DNA from: a virus
IMG/VR virus record: IMGVR_UViG_3300007513_000170
Span: 1 to 27,232 of that record
Strand: one strand, 5' to 3'
DNA: 27,232 nt
Position numbers and translations under genes: made by a program. Under the pieces are notes generated by a model. That model made no database searches and was not told the origin of the DNA. It worked only from the letters and a program-made list of their open reading frames with translations. Below are positions 18,949 through 23,607 of the stretch, one piece after another (the stretch's first letter is position 1; each line of letters starts with the position of its first letter).

Positions 18949-20274
18949 TCAAGATTGAAGTTCAATCCTCTCTCCTATCCATTTCATTACTGGAACTGCC
19001 ATGCTGTTGCCTAACGCTTTGTATCGTGGCGAATTAGGACAGCTCTCTTCTGGCTTTCCTCGAAACGGAATCCTTGTGTAGTTATCTGGAAAGCCTTGTA
19101 ATCTTTCACACTCAATTGGAGTTAGCCTTCTTACTTGCATTTTTTGTGCAATACCTATCCCACCTTGATTTTTTGACGGGCATGGAGTTGTCGTATCCAA
19201 ACACCTTGCAGTCTCAACTTCTCTACACCCTGAATAGGGGTTAGATGATTTCATTGAATTTGAAGAGAGAGCGTCAAAACTAAACGCTACAACATGTTTA
19301 TCTCCTGCCGTTAGTGTTGGAGCAGGATCACCTGCCTTACCAATGCCTAAGCCATTACCAGAACCCTTGCCTGTTATGCCTTTGTGTCTGGTTGCCTTGT
19401 CTTGAATAGGATAAACAACGCTTGGAGGAACAATGCCTCCACCCCCGTTTGCTCTTAATGCTCCGCATACTTCTTCACCGATCTTTGGAGTTACATCAGC
19501 AATTACGCTATAGCAAATATCAGTAACATCCTTGTAATCTCTTGCCTTGATTGCAGATACAGTTCCATCTTCTATGTAATCTCCGAATCCCCGCATCCTT
19601 GCAGCAACGCCCCCTTCAACATTGGAGGCAAGATCTTCTCCCTCCTTTCTGCTCGGTTCAGAATTCCTCTGCAAGCCTTCTCGCTCAAGAAGTATCGGGG
19701 ATCTATCTCCCCACTCTCCAAAATCTGCGAGAGCAAAGATCCTTCTGCGTCTTTGTGGAACTCCGAACCACTGTGCGTCCAGCACACGCCATTCGAGGAA
19801 CCCGTCCTCTCCGATAGCAACTCCGGTATTCTTCCATCCTCCGGTCGGAACGCCCAATTTGCACCCTGCCATTTCTCCAACCACGACAGCAAAATCTCTT
19901 CCTTCGTTTGATGAGAAGGCTCCTGGTACGTTCTCCCATAATGCGAATCTGCATCCGCAGTGTTCTCTTGCCCATCGAATAATCCGCATTGCATCGTTAA
20001 AAAGTCCTGATCGTTCACCATCTAACCCCTTTCTCTTTCCTGCTACTGATAAATCCTGACATGGAGACCCAAAGACAACTAGATCAATTTGACCTAGATT
20101 CTTCACATCTTTCTCTGTGATCTTTGTTACATCCCCCAGATTGGGAATGTCTGGATAATGATGTTGAAGTACCGCTGATGGAAACTGATCGAACTCGCAA
20201 TAAGCCACCGCCTCCCAATCCTTCCACGCCACTGAACATGCCTCGATTCCTGAGAACAAAGATAGATACCTCAC
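18949..20274 (-). CDS. DNA (cytosine-5) methyltransferase, orphan (441 aa)
   Basis: Transfers methyl from S-adenosylmethionine to cytosine C5. Motif I LSLFSGIEACSVAW (4-17), motif IV with catalytic Cys72 in GSPCQDLSVAGKRKGL, motif VI ALWENVPGAFS (Glu114), motif VIII QWFGVPQRRRRIF (168-180), motif IX LTPIECERLQGFPDNYT and motif X KALGNSMAVPV. The target-recognition region (about 185-380) is long and holds repeated phage-type blocks (SAIKARDYKD, CGALRANGGGG, PTLTAGDKHVVAF, ETARCLDTTTPC), as in multispecific phage enzymes. Start is a GTG overlapping the upstream TGA. No restriction partner is nearby, so an anti-restriction role is likely. Confidence 0.93.
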   Translation of the reverse strand: MRYLSLFSGIEACSVAWKDWEAVAYCEFDQFPSAVLQHHYPDIPNLGDVTKITEKDVKNLGQIDLVVFGSPCQDLSVAGKRKGLDGERSGLFNDAMRIIRWAREHCGCRFALWENVPGAFSSNEGRDFAVVVGEMAGCKLGVPTGGWKNTGVAIGEDGFLEWRVLDAQWFGVPQRRRRIFALADFGEWGDRSPILLEREGLQRNSEPSRKEGEDLASNVEGGVAARMRGFGDYIEDGTVSAIKARDYKDVTDICYSVIADVTPKIGEEVCGALRANGGGGIVPPSVVYPIQDKATRHKGITGKGSGNGLGIGKAGDPAPTLTAGDKHVVAFSFDALSSNSMKSSNPYSGCREVETARCLDTTTPCPSKNQGGIGIAQKMQVRRLTPIECERLQGFPDNYTRIPFRGKPEESCPNSPRYKALGNSMAVPVMKWIGERIELQS

Positions 20275-21369: not shown

Positions 21370-21481
21370 CTATCATCTCCAATCTAACATTCTTGATGAA
21401 CCCCTTTGGAGCATCCAAAAGGAACTTGGTTAATACAGGATCATTAGCCTTGATCCATTTCCATACTTCTTGCTTAGTCAT
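21320..21481 (-). CDS. Possible small coupled gene after the helicase (53 aa)
   Basis: An ATG overlapping the helicase stop (ATGA) opens a 53-codon frame, MTKQEVWKWIKANDPVLTKF, continuing LLDAPKGFIKNVRLEM. It fills the 108-base gap before the DUF1367 gene but overlaps that gene's first 50 bases, which is long for this genome. No family recognised. The composition is normal and the helical start is plausible, so I list it with moderate confidence; it may instead be translational spacing. Confidence 0.45.
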   Translation of the reverse strand: MTKQEVWKWIKANDPVLTKFLLDAPKGFIKNVRLEMIDGNITNESNGRRTGSR

Positions 21482-22347
21482 TTGATCCTCATTGTTTTGT
21501 TGGGTGAATCAGTCCACTGCATTGATCTCTCATCCCACCAGAATCCGAATGTTCCCTCCCATTCTCCATGCCTTTGTTTGGCTATCTCCAGAAAACAGGA
21601 TGGATCTTTAGGATCACGCAACTCTTCTGGCTTCTTCCGAGAAACCAAGATCACGTTATCCGCAAGATCTGTTATCTCGCCAGCACCCTTCACATCGTAC
21701 TTTGTAATCCTTGAGGCGTTACGATCTGGCTTCCTGACGTGATGCACCAGATGAACATGAACCTTATGCTCCTTTGCTGCCCAACCAATAGCATCAACAA
21801 AGTTCTTTTGTCCGTTAAAGTCATCAGTTCCCTTAACGCATTTCATTAAGGAATCAATGAAGAAGTGGGTAACGCCATGCTCTTCTGCTCCCCAATGAAT
21901 CATTGCAAGGATCGACTCTGGATCACTCGTTCCCACTTGATCGTAAAGCCAGATACCATCCTCAATGAACTTGCCATAATCCCTAAAGGCTTTATCCGTT
22001 GGGGAATCTGTACCGATATACTGCCTACCCATTCGGGCAACAGTTGATTCTGCTGGCATCTCCAAGGAGGCAATCAATACTCTGCGCTGACTTGCTAGCC
22101 ATAAAGCCTGCATACCAGTGACCATTGATTTTCCAGATCCGTTAGTACCTGCCCAGATTGTGACCTCACCTGGACGAAACCGGAACTTCTCTTGAGTCTT
22201 TGTCCAAGGCATAGAATCTCCAAAGGTTTTTGTGCCGTGGCGTAACCTCTCTAAAGCATCCGTTAGGTAATCGGTAGCAGGACAGACCCATTGAGACTCC
22301 TGCCTTGCCCTAAAGGTTCTGAATTCCTCAGACTGAATGATTCTCAT
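21478..22347 (-). CDS. DnaB-like replicative helicase / RecA-fold ATPase (289 aa)
   Basis: Predicted replicative helicase motor, or loader ATPase, with only the RecA-like core. Walker A GTNGSGKS (67-74), SLEMP (94-98, the DnaB-type SLEM motif), Walker B HFFIDSLMK (Asp165), VHLVHHVRKP (about 198-207), GEITDLADNVILVSRK and the C-terminal AKQRHGEWEGTFGFWWD. No N-terminal primase or DnaB helical domain, so it is shorter than T7 gp4 or DnaB. I chose the second ATG (22347): it overlaps the upstream stop as ATGA with GAGGAG eight bases away; an ATG two codons earlier sits too near that site. Confidence 0.85.
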   Translation of the reverse strand: MRIIQSEEFRTFRARQESQWVCPATDYLTDALERLRHGTKTFGDSMPWTKTQEKFRFRPGEVTIWAGTNGSGKSMVTGMQALWLASQRRVLIASLEMPAESTVARMGRQYIGTDSPTDKAFRDYGKFIEDGIWLYDQVGTSDPESILAMIHWGAEEHGVTHFFIDSLMKCVKGTDDFNGQKNFVDAIGWAAKEHKVHVHLVHHVRKPDRNASRITKYDVKGAGEITDLADNVILVSRKKPEELRDPKDPSCFLEIAKQRHGEWEGTFGFWWDERSMQWTDSPNKTMRIK

Positions 22348-22883
22348 ATCCATTTCTCCTCTTGTTGCTTCTTCTTAGTCTCCCATGTTCTCACACAAGC
22401 CTTCCAGTTTTTGATCTTCGCCTTACCCCTCATCCAACCATTAGCTTCGTAATGATCCATGAACTTCTGAGCATCAACATCATTACTTCTTTCACGACAA
22501 TAATCCTCAATTTCCTTAACGGTTGGGGGAGTGAAACGACCCTTCTTCTCTCCTCTTCTCTCCTCTCCTCTAGGTACGGACTTTTCATTTCTCTGTACGG
22601 TATCGTACGAATCCGTACGAATGATAAATCCTGCCTTTACCAAGGTCTCCATCTTCAACTTTTTTGCCCCAATCTTACGAGCAATAAAGGCATCTGATCC
22701 CTCTATTCTTCCCTTATTTTTGGACGCAAATAGCCACAACTTTATGAGATAGAGTTGGTTCTGTTCTGTTAGTTCTTCGAAATGATAATCATCTATCAAG
22801 CAATTATGGAGCTTGATCCAATGAACAGGACGATCATCTTTGTACTGCTGAAACTTATCCCAATTCTTGATTTGATACTTCAT
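22344..22883 (-). CDS. Winged-helix replication initiator (phage O / DnaD-like, 179 aa)
   Basis: Predicted initiator that binds the origin and recruits helicase. Residues 1-95 (YQIKNWDKFQQYKDDRP, WIKLHNCLIDDYHFEELTEQ, YLIKLWLFASKNKGRIE, IARKIGAKKLKMETLVKAGFI) are the N-terminal domain typical of phage replisome organisers. A charged linker (about 96-118) follows, then a DnaD-type C-terminal region (PPTVKEIEDYCRERSNDVDA, FMDHYEANGWMRG, IKNWKACVRTWE). The linker DNA holds phased GTAC repeats and a polypurine run on the coding strand, as in lambda O. It overlaps the primase fragment by 29 bases and the helicase by ATGA. Confidence 0.8.
   Translation of the reverse strand: MKYQIKNWDKFQQYKDDRPVHWIKLHNCLIDDYHFEELTEQNQLYLIKLWLFASKNKGRIEGSDAFIARKIGAKKLKMETLVKAGFIIRTDSYDTVQRNEKSVPRGEERRGEKKGRFTPPTVKEIEDYCRERSNDVDAQKFMDHYEANGWMRGKAKIKNWKACVRTWETKKKQQEEKWI
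22540..22622. other. Candidate replication origin inside the initiator gene
   Basis: Four GTAC-centred units (cores at 22574, 22595, 22605 and 22615) are spaced 21, 10 and 10 bases apart, that is, in helical phase. Read on the minus strand the first three are tandem 10-mers: ATTCGTACGG, ATTCGTACGA, TACCGTACAG. Beside them 22540-22571 is an unbroken 32-base pyrimidine tract. The cluster lies in the linker part of the initiator gene, the place of the iterons in lambda O. Inference from pattern and position only. Confidence 0.5.
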
Positions 22884-23295
22884 CAGCTCCCCTTTCTTGT
22901 ATCCTAACGAACGCCTCCGCTTCCCTTCTAAGATCCTCCCTAGAGAGTTTCTTTCCCTTCTTGCGATCTGATTCTGCGATCTTAATGACTAGCTTTTCAT
23001 GAGATACCTCCTCTTCTCTCCTCTTTCTTCTGGCTATCTCTGCTCTTGCGAAAGCGAATGGATGAAAGTTCTCCTTGTCGATCTCTGGCATGAGATCCTT
23101 TAACTCCAAACCCACAGAGTGAACGATGTCTAGTGCTGTACATCCTGCGAAACAATGTAAAAGAATCCTCCCATCATCCTCTAATCTAATGGCTAAGGAT
23201 GGATCTGAGTCATCGTGTGACGGACAACAAGCCATCCACTTGTTACCCCCTGACTTCTTAACCTTTTGTAACGAACTCAGTATGTTCTCGATCAC
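22855..23295 (-). CDS. Primase-type zinc-finger protein without catalytic domain (146 aa)
   Basis: Resembles the zinc-binding N-terminal domain of DnaG and T7 gp4: KVKKSGGNKWMACCPSHDDSDPSLAIR (11-37) and GRILLHCFAGCTALDIV (42-58), with Cys24, His27, Cys48 and Cys52 as zinc ligands. The rest (about 80-146) is a charged helix rich in Arg/Lys/Glu; no TOPRIM signature is present. I start at the GTG at 23295, where GAGGAG lies seven bases upstream. The longer frame reaching to 23439 would lie almost wholly inside the RHH gene and codes for atypical sequence. Coupled to the initiator gene. Confidence 0.78.
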   Translation of the reverse strand: MIENILSSLQKVKKSGGNKWMACCPSHDDSDPSLAIRLEDDGRILLHCFAGCTALDIVHSVGLELKDLMPEIDKENFHPFAFARAEIARRKRREEEVSHEKLVIKIAESDRKKGKKLSREDLRREAEAFVRIQERGADEVSNQELG

Positions 23296-23452
23296 AATCA
23301 CACTCCTCCTTGTGCTGCTTAACTGCTTGTTCCAGGATATAAATAACCTGACTGGACCTACTTCTACGCTCCTGTTTGGCGATTGCTTCCAGAGCCTTCC
23401 ACAAATCATCGGCAATGCGGAAGTGCTTAACCGTCCCATTCTCTTCTGACAT
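23258..23452 (-). CDS. Ribbon-helix-helix transcription regulator (64 aa)
   Basis: Arc/MetJ-type dimeric DNA-binding protein. VKHFRIADDLWKALEAIAKQERRSRSSQVIYILEQAVKQHKE (8-49) gives the beta strand, helix, turn (RRSRSSQ) and second helix. The C-terminal tail is acidic with Cys-Asp-Cys. AAGGAG lies six bases before the ATG. It is the first leftward gene, about 30 bases from the promoter with an inverted repeat, so autorepression and control of the divergent rightward promoter are likely. It overlaps the primase fragment by 38 bases in another frame. Confidence 0.85.
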   Translation of the reverse strand: MSEENGTVKHFRIADDLWKALEAIAKQERRSRSSQVIYILEQAVKQHKEECDCDREHTEFVTKG

Positions 23453-23477
23453 CTTGCTCTCCTTTTTCTAAAGAGAC

Positions 23478-23502
23478 TCTATCATAATGCCTATTATATA
23501 GA
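23478..23502. promoter_or_regulatory. Inverted repeat over the leftward -10 region, candidate operator
   Basis: TCTAT-C-ATAAT, a GCCT centre, then ATTATATAGA: two 10-base arms that pair completely except for one extra C. It spans the leftward promoter spacer and its -10 box. An RHH dimer pair on this site would block the leftward promoter. The symmetry is visible; the binding protein is inferred. Confidence 0.55.
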
Positions 23503-23509
23503 GGTGCAA
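23481..23509 (-). promoter_or_regulatory. Leftward promoter for the RHH and replication genes
   Basis: On the minus strand TTGCAC (23509-23504), a 17-base spacer and TATGAT (23486-23481), with the RHH start codon about 30 bases beyond. A perfect TATAAT (23498-23493) also exists in the same stretch but has no good -35. The weak -35 fits a regulated promoter. Confidence 0.6.
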
Positions 23510-23528
23510 CAGATTTAATCTTTTTTTG

Positions 23529-23556
23529 TTGACATTTAATATTCAGCGTGTATTAT
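23529..23556 (+). promoter_or_regulatory. Strong sigma70 promoter for the rightward block
   Basis: Consensus TTGACA (23529-23534), a 16-base spacer and TATTAT (23551-23556), preceded by a T-run that could act as an UP-like element. Transcription should begin near 23563, giving a leader of about 45 bases ahead of the gene at 23608, which has an AAAAGGAG ribosome site. Likely an early promoter read by host RNA polymerase. Confidence 0.85.
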
Positions 23557-23607
23557 GAACTTGCAGTTACACAAAAGTATGGACAAATTTTGAAAAGGAG
23601 AAATGAT

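Follow-up and report, generated by a model that had tools for sequence, protein, structure and literature searches.

A putative replication origin of phased GTAC iterons and an AGAG tract inside the initiator gene of an uncultured phage and in its relatives

In this study, we analyzed a 27,232-bp IMG/VR virus record (in the following, the window) and its relatives. An iteron array and an adjoining purine tract of the window are very probably the replication origin of the phage, located inside the gene of the initiator inferred to bind it; binding, footprint, unwinding or replication data do not exist. By comparison with related sequences, four GTAC iterons, helically phased at 10 and 21 bp, and the adjoining AGAG tract were shown to be a unit selected as DNA. 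An origin candidate inside the initiator gene had been proposed in the initial annotation of this DNA, and this proposal is now well supported by comparison, without bench data.

Results

The initiator gene and its neighbors

The 179-aa initiator is encoded on the minus strand, preceded by the gene of a DnaG-type zinc-ribbon protein and followed by that of a DnaB-C/RecA-like helicase, with the following features:

22855..23439 (-): preceding gene, DnaG-type zinc-ribbon primase-like protein (Pfam Zn_ribbon_DnaG 1.6e-6)
22344..22883 (-): initiator gene, 179 aa; ORF for an N-terminal winged-helix-like domain, a disordered linker and a helical C-terminal domain
22608..22883 (-): coding sequence of the winged-helix-like N-terminal domain, aa 1-92 (AlphaFold; iteron binding inferred)
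22350..22523 (-): coding sequence of the C-terminal helical domain, aa 121-178 (AlphaFold helices 122-131, 138-147 and 160-178; phrog_15768)
21478..22353 (-): next gene, RecA-like/DnaB-C-like helicase (Pfam DnaB_C 1.9e-9; phrog_239 4e-52)

The AlphaFold model of the initiator (pLDDT 85) has an N-terminal domain composed of a strand, helices at residues 20-31, 33-37, 40-56, 64-71 and 78-84, and a strand at 87-90. It is followed by a linker predicted to be disordered, with pLDDT below 50 at residues 97-111, and by the helical C-terminal domain. Array and tract coincide with this linker, in agreement with their initially assigned position between the winged-helix and C-terminal parts. According to the model, a disordered linker would fit a stretch that is free to encode DNA signals.

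The N-terminal part of the initiator (window residues 2-114) matches phrog_26426 'replication protein' (2.3e-9), and this N-terminal homology was also found for other members (L008 1e-183, L012 3e-32, L009 1e-15). The C-terminal part matches phrog_15768 of unknown function (7e-21). Pfam and NCBIfam searches of the 179-aa initiator remained without a match, a PDB fold search with full-length and domain-only models yielded nothing with E below 1, and the sequence profile of the initiator gave only chance matches against the PDB. The initial description of the C-terminus as DnaD-like was not confirmed, as the C-terminus of the window initiator had no Pfam match, including DnaD/DnaB_2. The C-terminal domain also had no match to a known loader-binding family; it is presumed to be the partner of the helicase or its loader, a function that is inferred. 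A scan for relatives with the neighboring helicase found none. The same phage also carries a C5-cytosine DNA methylase gene (18949-20274, minus strand; Pfam DNA_methylase 2e-41).

The GTAC array and the pyrimidine run in the window

The annotated four GTAC units with spacings of 21, 10 and 10 beside an unbroken 32-base pyrimidine run were confirmed. The GTAC starts are at 22574, 22595, 22605 and 22615 (plus-strand coordinates) and the run is at 22540-22571:

22610..22619 (-): iteron 1, CGTACGGATT; GTAC at 22615-22618; nt 265 of the gene, also in L001, L014 and L015
22600..22609 (-): iteron 2, CGTACGATAC; GTAC at 22605-22608; nt 275, also in L001, L014 and L015
22590..22599 (-): iteron 3, CGTACAGAGA; GTAC at 22595-22598; nt 285, also in L001 and L014
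22569..22578 (-): iteron 4, CGTACCTAGA; GTAC at 22574-22577; 21 bp past iteron 3, abutting the tract
22540..22571 (-), coding strand: AGAG-repeat purine tract; a 32-nt pyrimidine run on the plus strand, AGAG units at 5-nt steps

Read along the gene, CGTACGGATT CGTACGATAC CGTACAGAGA are followed by 11 bp and CGTACCTAGAGGAGAGG. The junction of iteron 4 and tract, GTACCTAGAG, is common to the window, L001, L014, L222, L223, L225 and L226. In L001, a 57%-identical relative, GTAC is found at gene nt 265, 275 and 285, followed by an AGAG tract.

Among 300 dinucleotide shuffles of the window, a single one had four GTAC within 45 nt and none had a 32-nt run, the longest purine or pyrimidine run of the window. 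No other 10/11/20-22-bp repeat locus in the whole window scores as high as the GTAC array (score 9; runner-up 4). When the protein was kept, at least four GTAC were present in 0.33% of synonymous recodings (661/200,000; the gene's own codon usage) and in 0.055% with the linker excluded from codon usage, and a coding-strand purine run of at least 32 nt was present in 8.9% (encoded residues RGEERRGEKKG). Thus, the length of the 32-nt run is not exceptional given the encoded protein. On its own, without relatives, the window provides origin evidence that is suggestive only, and the significance of the GTAC set is modest. A further pyrimidine run, 25 nt long, is located at 23007-23031 (plus strand) within the preceding primase-like gene.

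Phased iterons and AGAG repeats in the family

Repeats and tract could merely reflect the protein, i.e. a charged, disordered linker of R, E, K and G with biased codons. This would be in line with the probability of the run given the protein (P=0.089) and with family linkers rich in E, R, K and T; close relatives of the window, however, keep GTAC at nt 265 and 275. A broader comparison was possible because profile scans with the N-terminal domain detected at least 500 relatives in IMG/VR and 39 loci in bacterial genomes, which are prophages or prophage-like (Bradyrhizobium, Massilia, Planctomycetes and others). Relatives of this domain are also present in phages of Vibrio, Xanthomonas, Iodobacter, Limnohabitans and Cylindrospermopsis. 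Dereplication at 80% identity resulted in 138 relatives, of which 127 were usable.

For these 127 genes, the recurrence of exact 5-mers with at least two pyrimidines within codons 75-118 was compared with synonymous recoding. At a lag of 11, 502 recurrences were seen vs. 36 expected (z 51), followed by lags of 22 (242 vs. 31), 33 (127 vs. 42) and 44 (22 vs. 7), and an excess was also found at lags of 10 (44 vs. 10) and 21 (55 vs. 21), while most remaining lags were close to the synonymous expectation. Judged from these lags, the 10/11-bp recurrence is the helical period of DNA.

Three iteron words were found, namely GTAC in 10-bp steps, as in the window, and GATATC and GCTAGC in 11-bp steps. 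The step between successive sites is 10 bp in 23 of 27 cases for GTAC, 11 bp in 74 of 79 for GATATC and mostly 11 bp for GCTAGC; most sites of the GATATC class are located 16, 27 and 38 nt ahead of the tract. The codon phase of the iterons varies; GATATC, for instance, is read as D-I, x-I-S and R/G-Y-Q. Classes were assigned by a strict phased rule, which left 27 of 143 rows without an assigned array, some of them visibly degenerate. This rule replaced simple word counts, which had classed L194 and L096 as GTAC. Inspection by eye showed L194 to be GATATC-like and L096 to be a distant relative with two GTAC 11 bp apart; L096 is the tenth GTAC row under the phased rule. Both were excluded from the support for convergent origins described below.

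In the family tract, 7.0 AGAG per 48 nt were seen vs. 1.2 expected given the protein, and AGAG exceeded 95% of the recodings in 117 of 120 genes. The bias is restricted to one strand (887 AGAG vs. 3 CTCT), and the AGAG steps are 5 nt in the GTAC class and mainly 6 nt in the GATATC class. In this comparison, the conserved feature of the tract is its AGAG repeats. The criterion of phased iterons plus an AGAG tract in the linker, a feature defined in the present analysis, was met by phrog_26426 family members. Neither the phased words nor the AGAG repeats are produced by synonymous recoding, and the reading frame shifts from copy to copy under the 10/11-bp period, both of which speak against the protein as their cause. 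The refutation test given with the initial annotation, i.e. repeats not conserved beyond the amino-acid constraint, was thereby run, and phased arrays and AGAG repeats were far above the synonymous expectation.

The family tract has 52% AT and usually one pyrimidine per 6 nt. An AT-rich unwinding element beside the iterons was not found, as the family tract has no AT peak. This composition does not support the unusual or easily melted structure initially suggested for the run. A triplex (H-DNA) was rejected, since the longest perfect mirror repeat has only 13 nt and most relatives interrupt the purine run every 6 nt.

Additional arrays were observed outside the linker. In many GCTAGC-class members, the part of the gene encoding the N-terminal domain contains another phased array of the same word (gene nt 117-158), e.g. 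in L008 (977-1014), L098, L100 and L105. In L222 and L223 of the GTAC class, extra GTAC are present at gene nt 98, 108 and 118 (98-121), upstream of the linker array.

Array and tract beyond the initiator reading frame

Searches of IMG/VR with DNA only, three words pooled, placed 157 of 170 listed loci inside an initiator gene. Three GTAC at 10 bp plus tract as query gave 10 loci, 7 of them inside the initiator ORF; among the matches listed, this was the case for 71 of 80 loci with three GATATC at 11 bp and for 79 of 80 with two GCTAGC plus tract. A further locus of the GTAC search, L231, is at a contig end and its array is identical to that of L226.

In split members, the initiator ORF stops after the N-terminal domain (89-107 aa). 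Beyond the stop codon, phased sites of the GCTAGC type follow, in most cases also a AGAAGAGAAGA-like tract. In L025/L115 and L023/L112, the post-stop array is located in DNA that lacks a long open frame; a tract was not recognized after the stop codon in L023/L112. In other split members, array or tract are part of an open frame that forms the N-terminal part of the following gene product; in L121, this is a DEAD/ResIII-type helicase. As array and tract are kept past the stop codon of the initiator, selection acts on the DNA, and it becomes cleanly visible within coding sequence because the split genes free the kept array and tract from the initiator frame. From these sequences, the explanation by protein constraint is refuted for the family, and we consider it extremely unlikely overall.

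Stand-alone N-terminal domains of about 100 aa were seen in L021, L023, L025, L026, L028 and L029 and further in L110, L111, L116, L119, L120 and L121. In several split initiators, the TAG stop codon is part of a GCTAG iteron.

Two initiator residues track the iteron word

A new observation is that two residues of the initiator's N-terminal domain track the iteron word, with no exception in the rows with an assigned array. In the window, these are encoded at:

22842..22847 (-): Gln13-Tyr14 codons (column statistics; pair matching the iteron word, QY = GTAC)

Residues 13-14 are HF in all GATATC rows (45/45), HY in all GCTAGC rows (61/61), and QY (9/10) or GY (1/10) in GTAC rows. Residue 14 is therefore F in 45/45 GATATC rows and Y in the rest, and residue 13 is Q or G in GTAC rows and H in the rest. 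No other alignment column of the assigned-array rows comes near in separating the words. The sets from the DNA-only searches were gathered regardless of protein, with some rows read by eye after the script's motif search had failed; they gave HF in 69/69, HY in 77/77, and QY in 6 and GY in 1 of 7 readable rows.

On a tree computed without residues 11-16, GTAC requires 4 changes, and well supported branches enforce at least 3 of them. L079, L080 and L006 lie within the GATATC clade, yet have GCTAGC and HY. Clade structure explains part of the F/Y contrast, and because of this, the repeated origin of Q13 together with GTAC is the stronger evidence. In the AlphaFold model, residues 13-14 are in a less certain segment (mean pLDDT of block 11-20, 63-67), and their contact with DNA is an inference without binding data. 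This pair of residues is a correlate of initiator specificity, amenable to testing by exchange of positions 13-14.

Discussion

Comparison with known origins

The arrangement resembles the lambda ori, where iterons (39034-39118) are located in the middle of gene O after the N-terminal domain, followed by a purine-rich tract on the coding strand (run 39138-39155). Two lambda-type criteria are met: an iteron array within the initiator gene between its domains, and a strand-asymmetric purine tract on the coding strand adjoining the iterons. In lambda and its Stx-phage relatives, iterons and an AT-rich tract are found in the middle of gene O, and in Stx phages extra iterons add 13 aa (PMC7466680). 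In contrast, lambda iterons have 18 bp and are 20-24 bp apart, whereas the present family has 4-6-bp cores at 10/11 bp, and the lambda tract has 80% AT instead of AGAG repeats with ~52% AT. Pfam did not detect Phage_rep_O (PF04492) in the window, L001, L008, L009 or L012 (lambda O, 6e-36), and homology of the N-terminal domain to lambda O was not detectable by hhalign (probability 0.4%). Judged by its arrangement, the putative origin would work like that of lambda; membership of the lambda O family is not shown.

Closer counterparts are gp04 of Iodobacter phage PhiPLPE and orf004 of Xanthomonas phage PBR31 (phrog_26426), which have a homologous N-terminal domain and phased iterons plus an AGAG tract at the same place as in the window. 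The word is GCTAGC with residues HY in PhiPLPE and GATATC with HF in PBR31, compared with GTAC in the window, and the C-terminal domains of both proteins differ from that of the window. In their records, the genes are annotated as coding for a replication protein or a DnaD-like helicase loader, and an origin is not annotated. An earlier description of this iteron/AGAG origin family was not found in the PMC open-access papers searched; subscription journals and preprints were outside the scope.

In bacterial oriC, double-stranded DnaA boxes are located beside the DnaA-trio, a short motif repeated on one strand (PMC10797057). This resembles iterons plus AGAG tract, although the initiator type is unrelated and the repeated motif different. 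That the AGAG tract might be bound as a single strand, as with the DnaA-trio, is only a hypothesis by analogy.

Origin, operator or accessory site

Phased sites beside the gene of a DNA-binding protein would also be compatible with an operator for autoregulation of the initiator, or with a partition or transcription-antitermination site, and replication data that could exclude this are lacking. We regard such a function as unlikely, since the array is located in the middle of the gene, ~260 nt past the start codon, the adjoining strand-specific AGAG tract would have no role in an operator, and the gene neighbors encode a primase-like protein and a helicase. Moreover, lambdoid phages have iterons and tract at the same place as a proven origin (PMC7466680).

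The array could also bind the initiator in an accessory role (enhancer, copy control or initiator titration), with replication starting elsewhere, e.g. near 23,450-23,600. The 27-kb fragment has its cumulative GC-skew minimum at 23,491, ~0.9 kb off the array; this position and the second phased array within the domain code of many GCTAGC-class members would be in line with such a role. However, the skew check proposed in the initial annotation was uninformative, because the minimum is located at the switch between divergent gene blocks, where transcription alone would predict it. In ctEw122, too, the GC-skew minimum is far from the array. As array and tract are a conserved unit, an accessory role appears very unlikely.

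Proposed mechanism

For an origin at array and tract, we propose that initiator monomers or dimers would occupy the phased sites along one helical face via their N-terminal domain, with the 13-14 segment at or near the base contacts. The bound initiators may form a one-sided nucleoprotein array that opens or captures the adjoining tract, probably holding one strand via the AGAG repeats, and the C-terminal domain might then hand over the phage's own helicase, the product of the next gene. All of these steps are inferred. If the AGAG tract opens without AT-richness, the strand-opening mechanism would depart from the lambda model.

The signature of phased GTAC, GATATC or GCTAGC plus AGAG tract would allow the putative origins of hundreds of uncultured phages to be located with single-base precision. 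A more far-reaching reading is a widespread class of self-carried origins, in which the residue pair in the N-terminal arm of the initiator sets the word (HF for GATATC, HY for GCTAGC, QY/GY for GTAC), the word goes with 11- or 10-bp spacing, and the non-AT-rich AGAG tract is a strand-specific, DnaA-trio-like entry site for single-strand binding; we offer this tentatively, with somewhat less than even confidence. As a single DNA segment provides both protein and site, the two would be inherited and exchanged together; this joint inheritance could preserve the match between initiator and site when the specificity changes.

In L090, L056, L114, L069 and L072, an HNH endonuclease domain is inserted into the linker, after the N-terminal domain and ahead of the iteron/AGAG tract; it may be a homing-type insertion that targets the origin.
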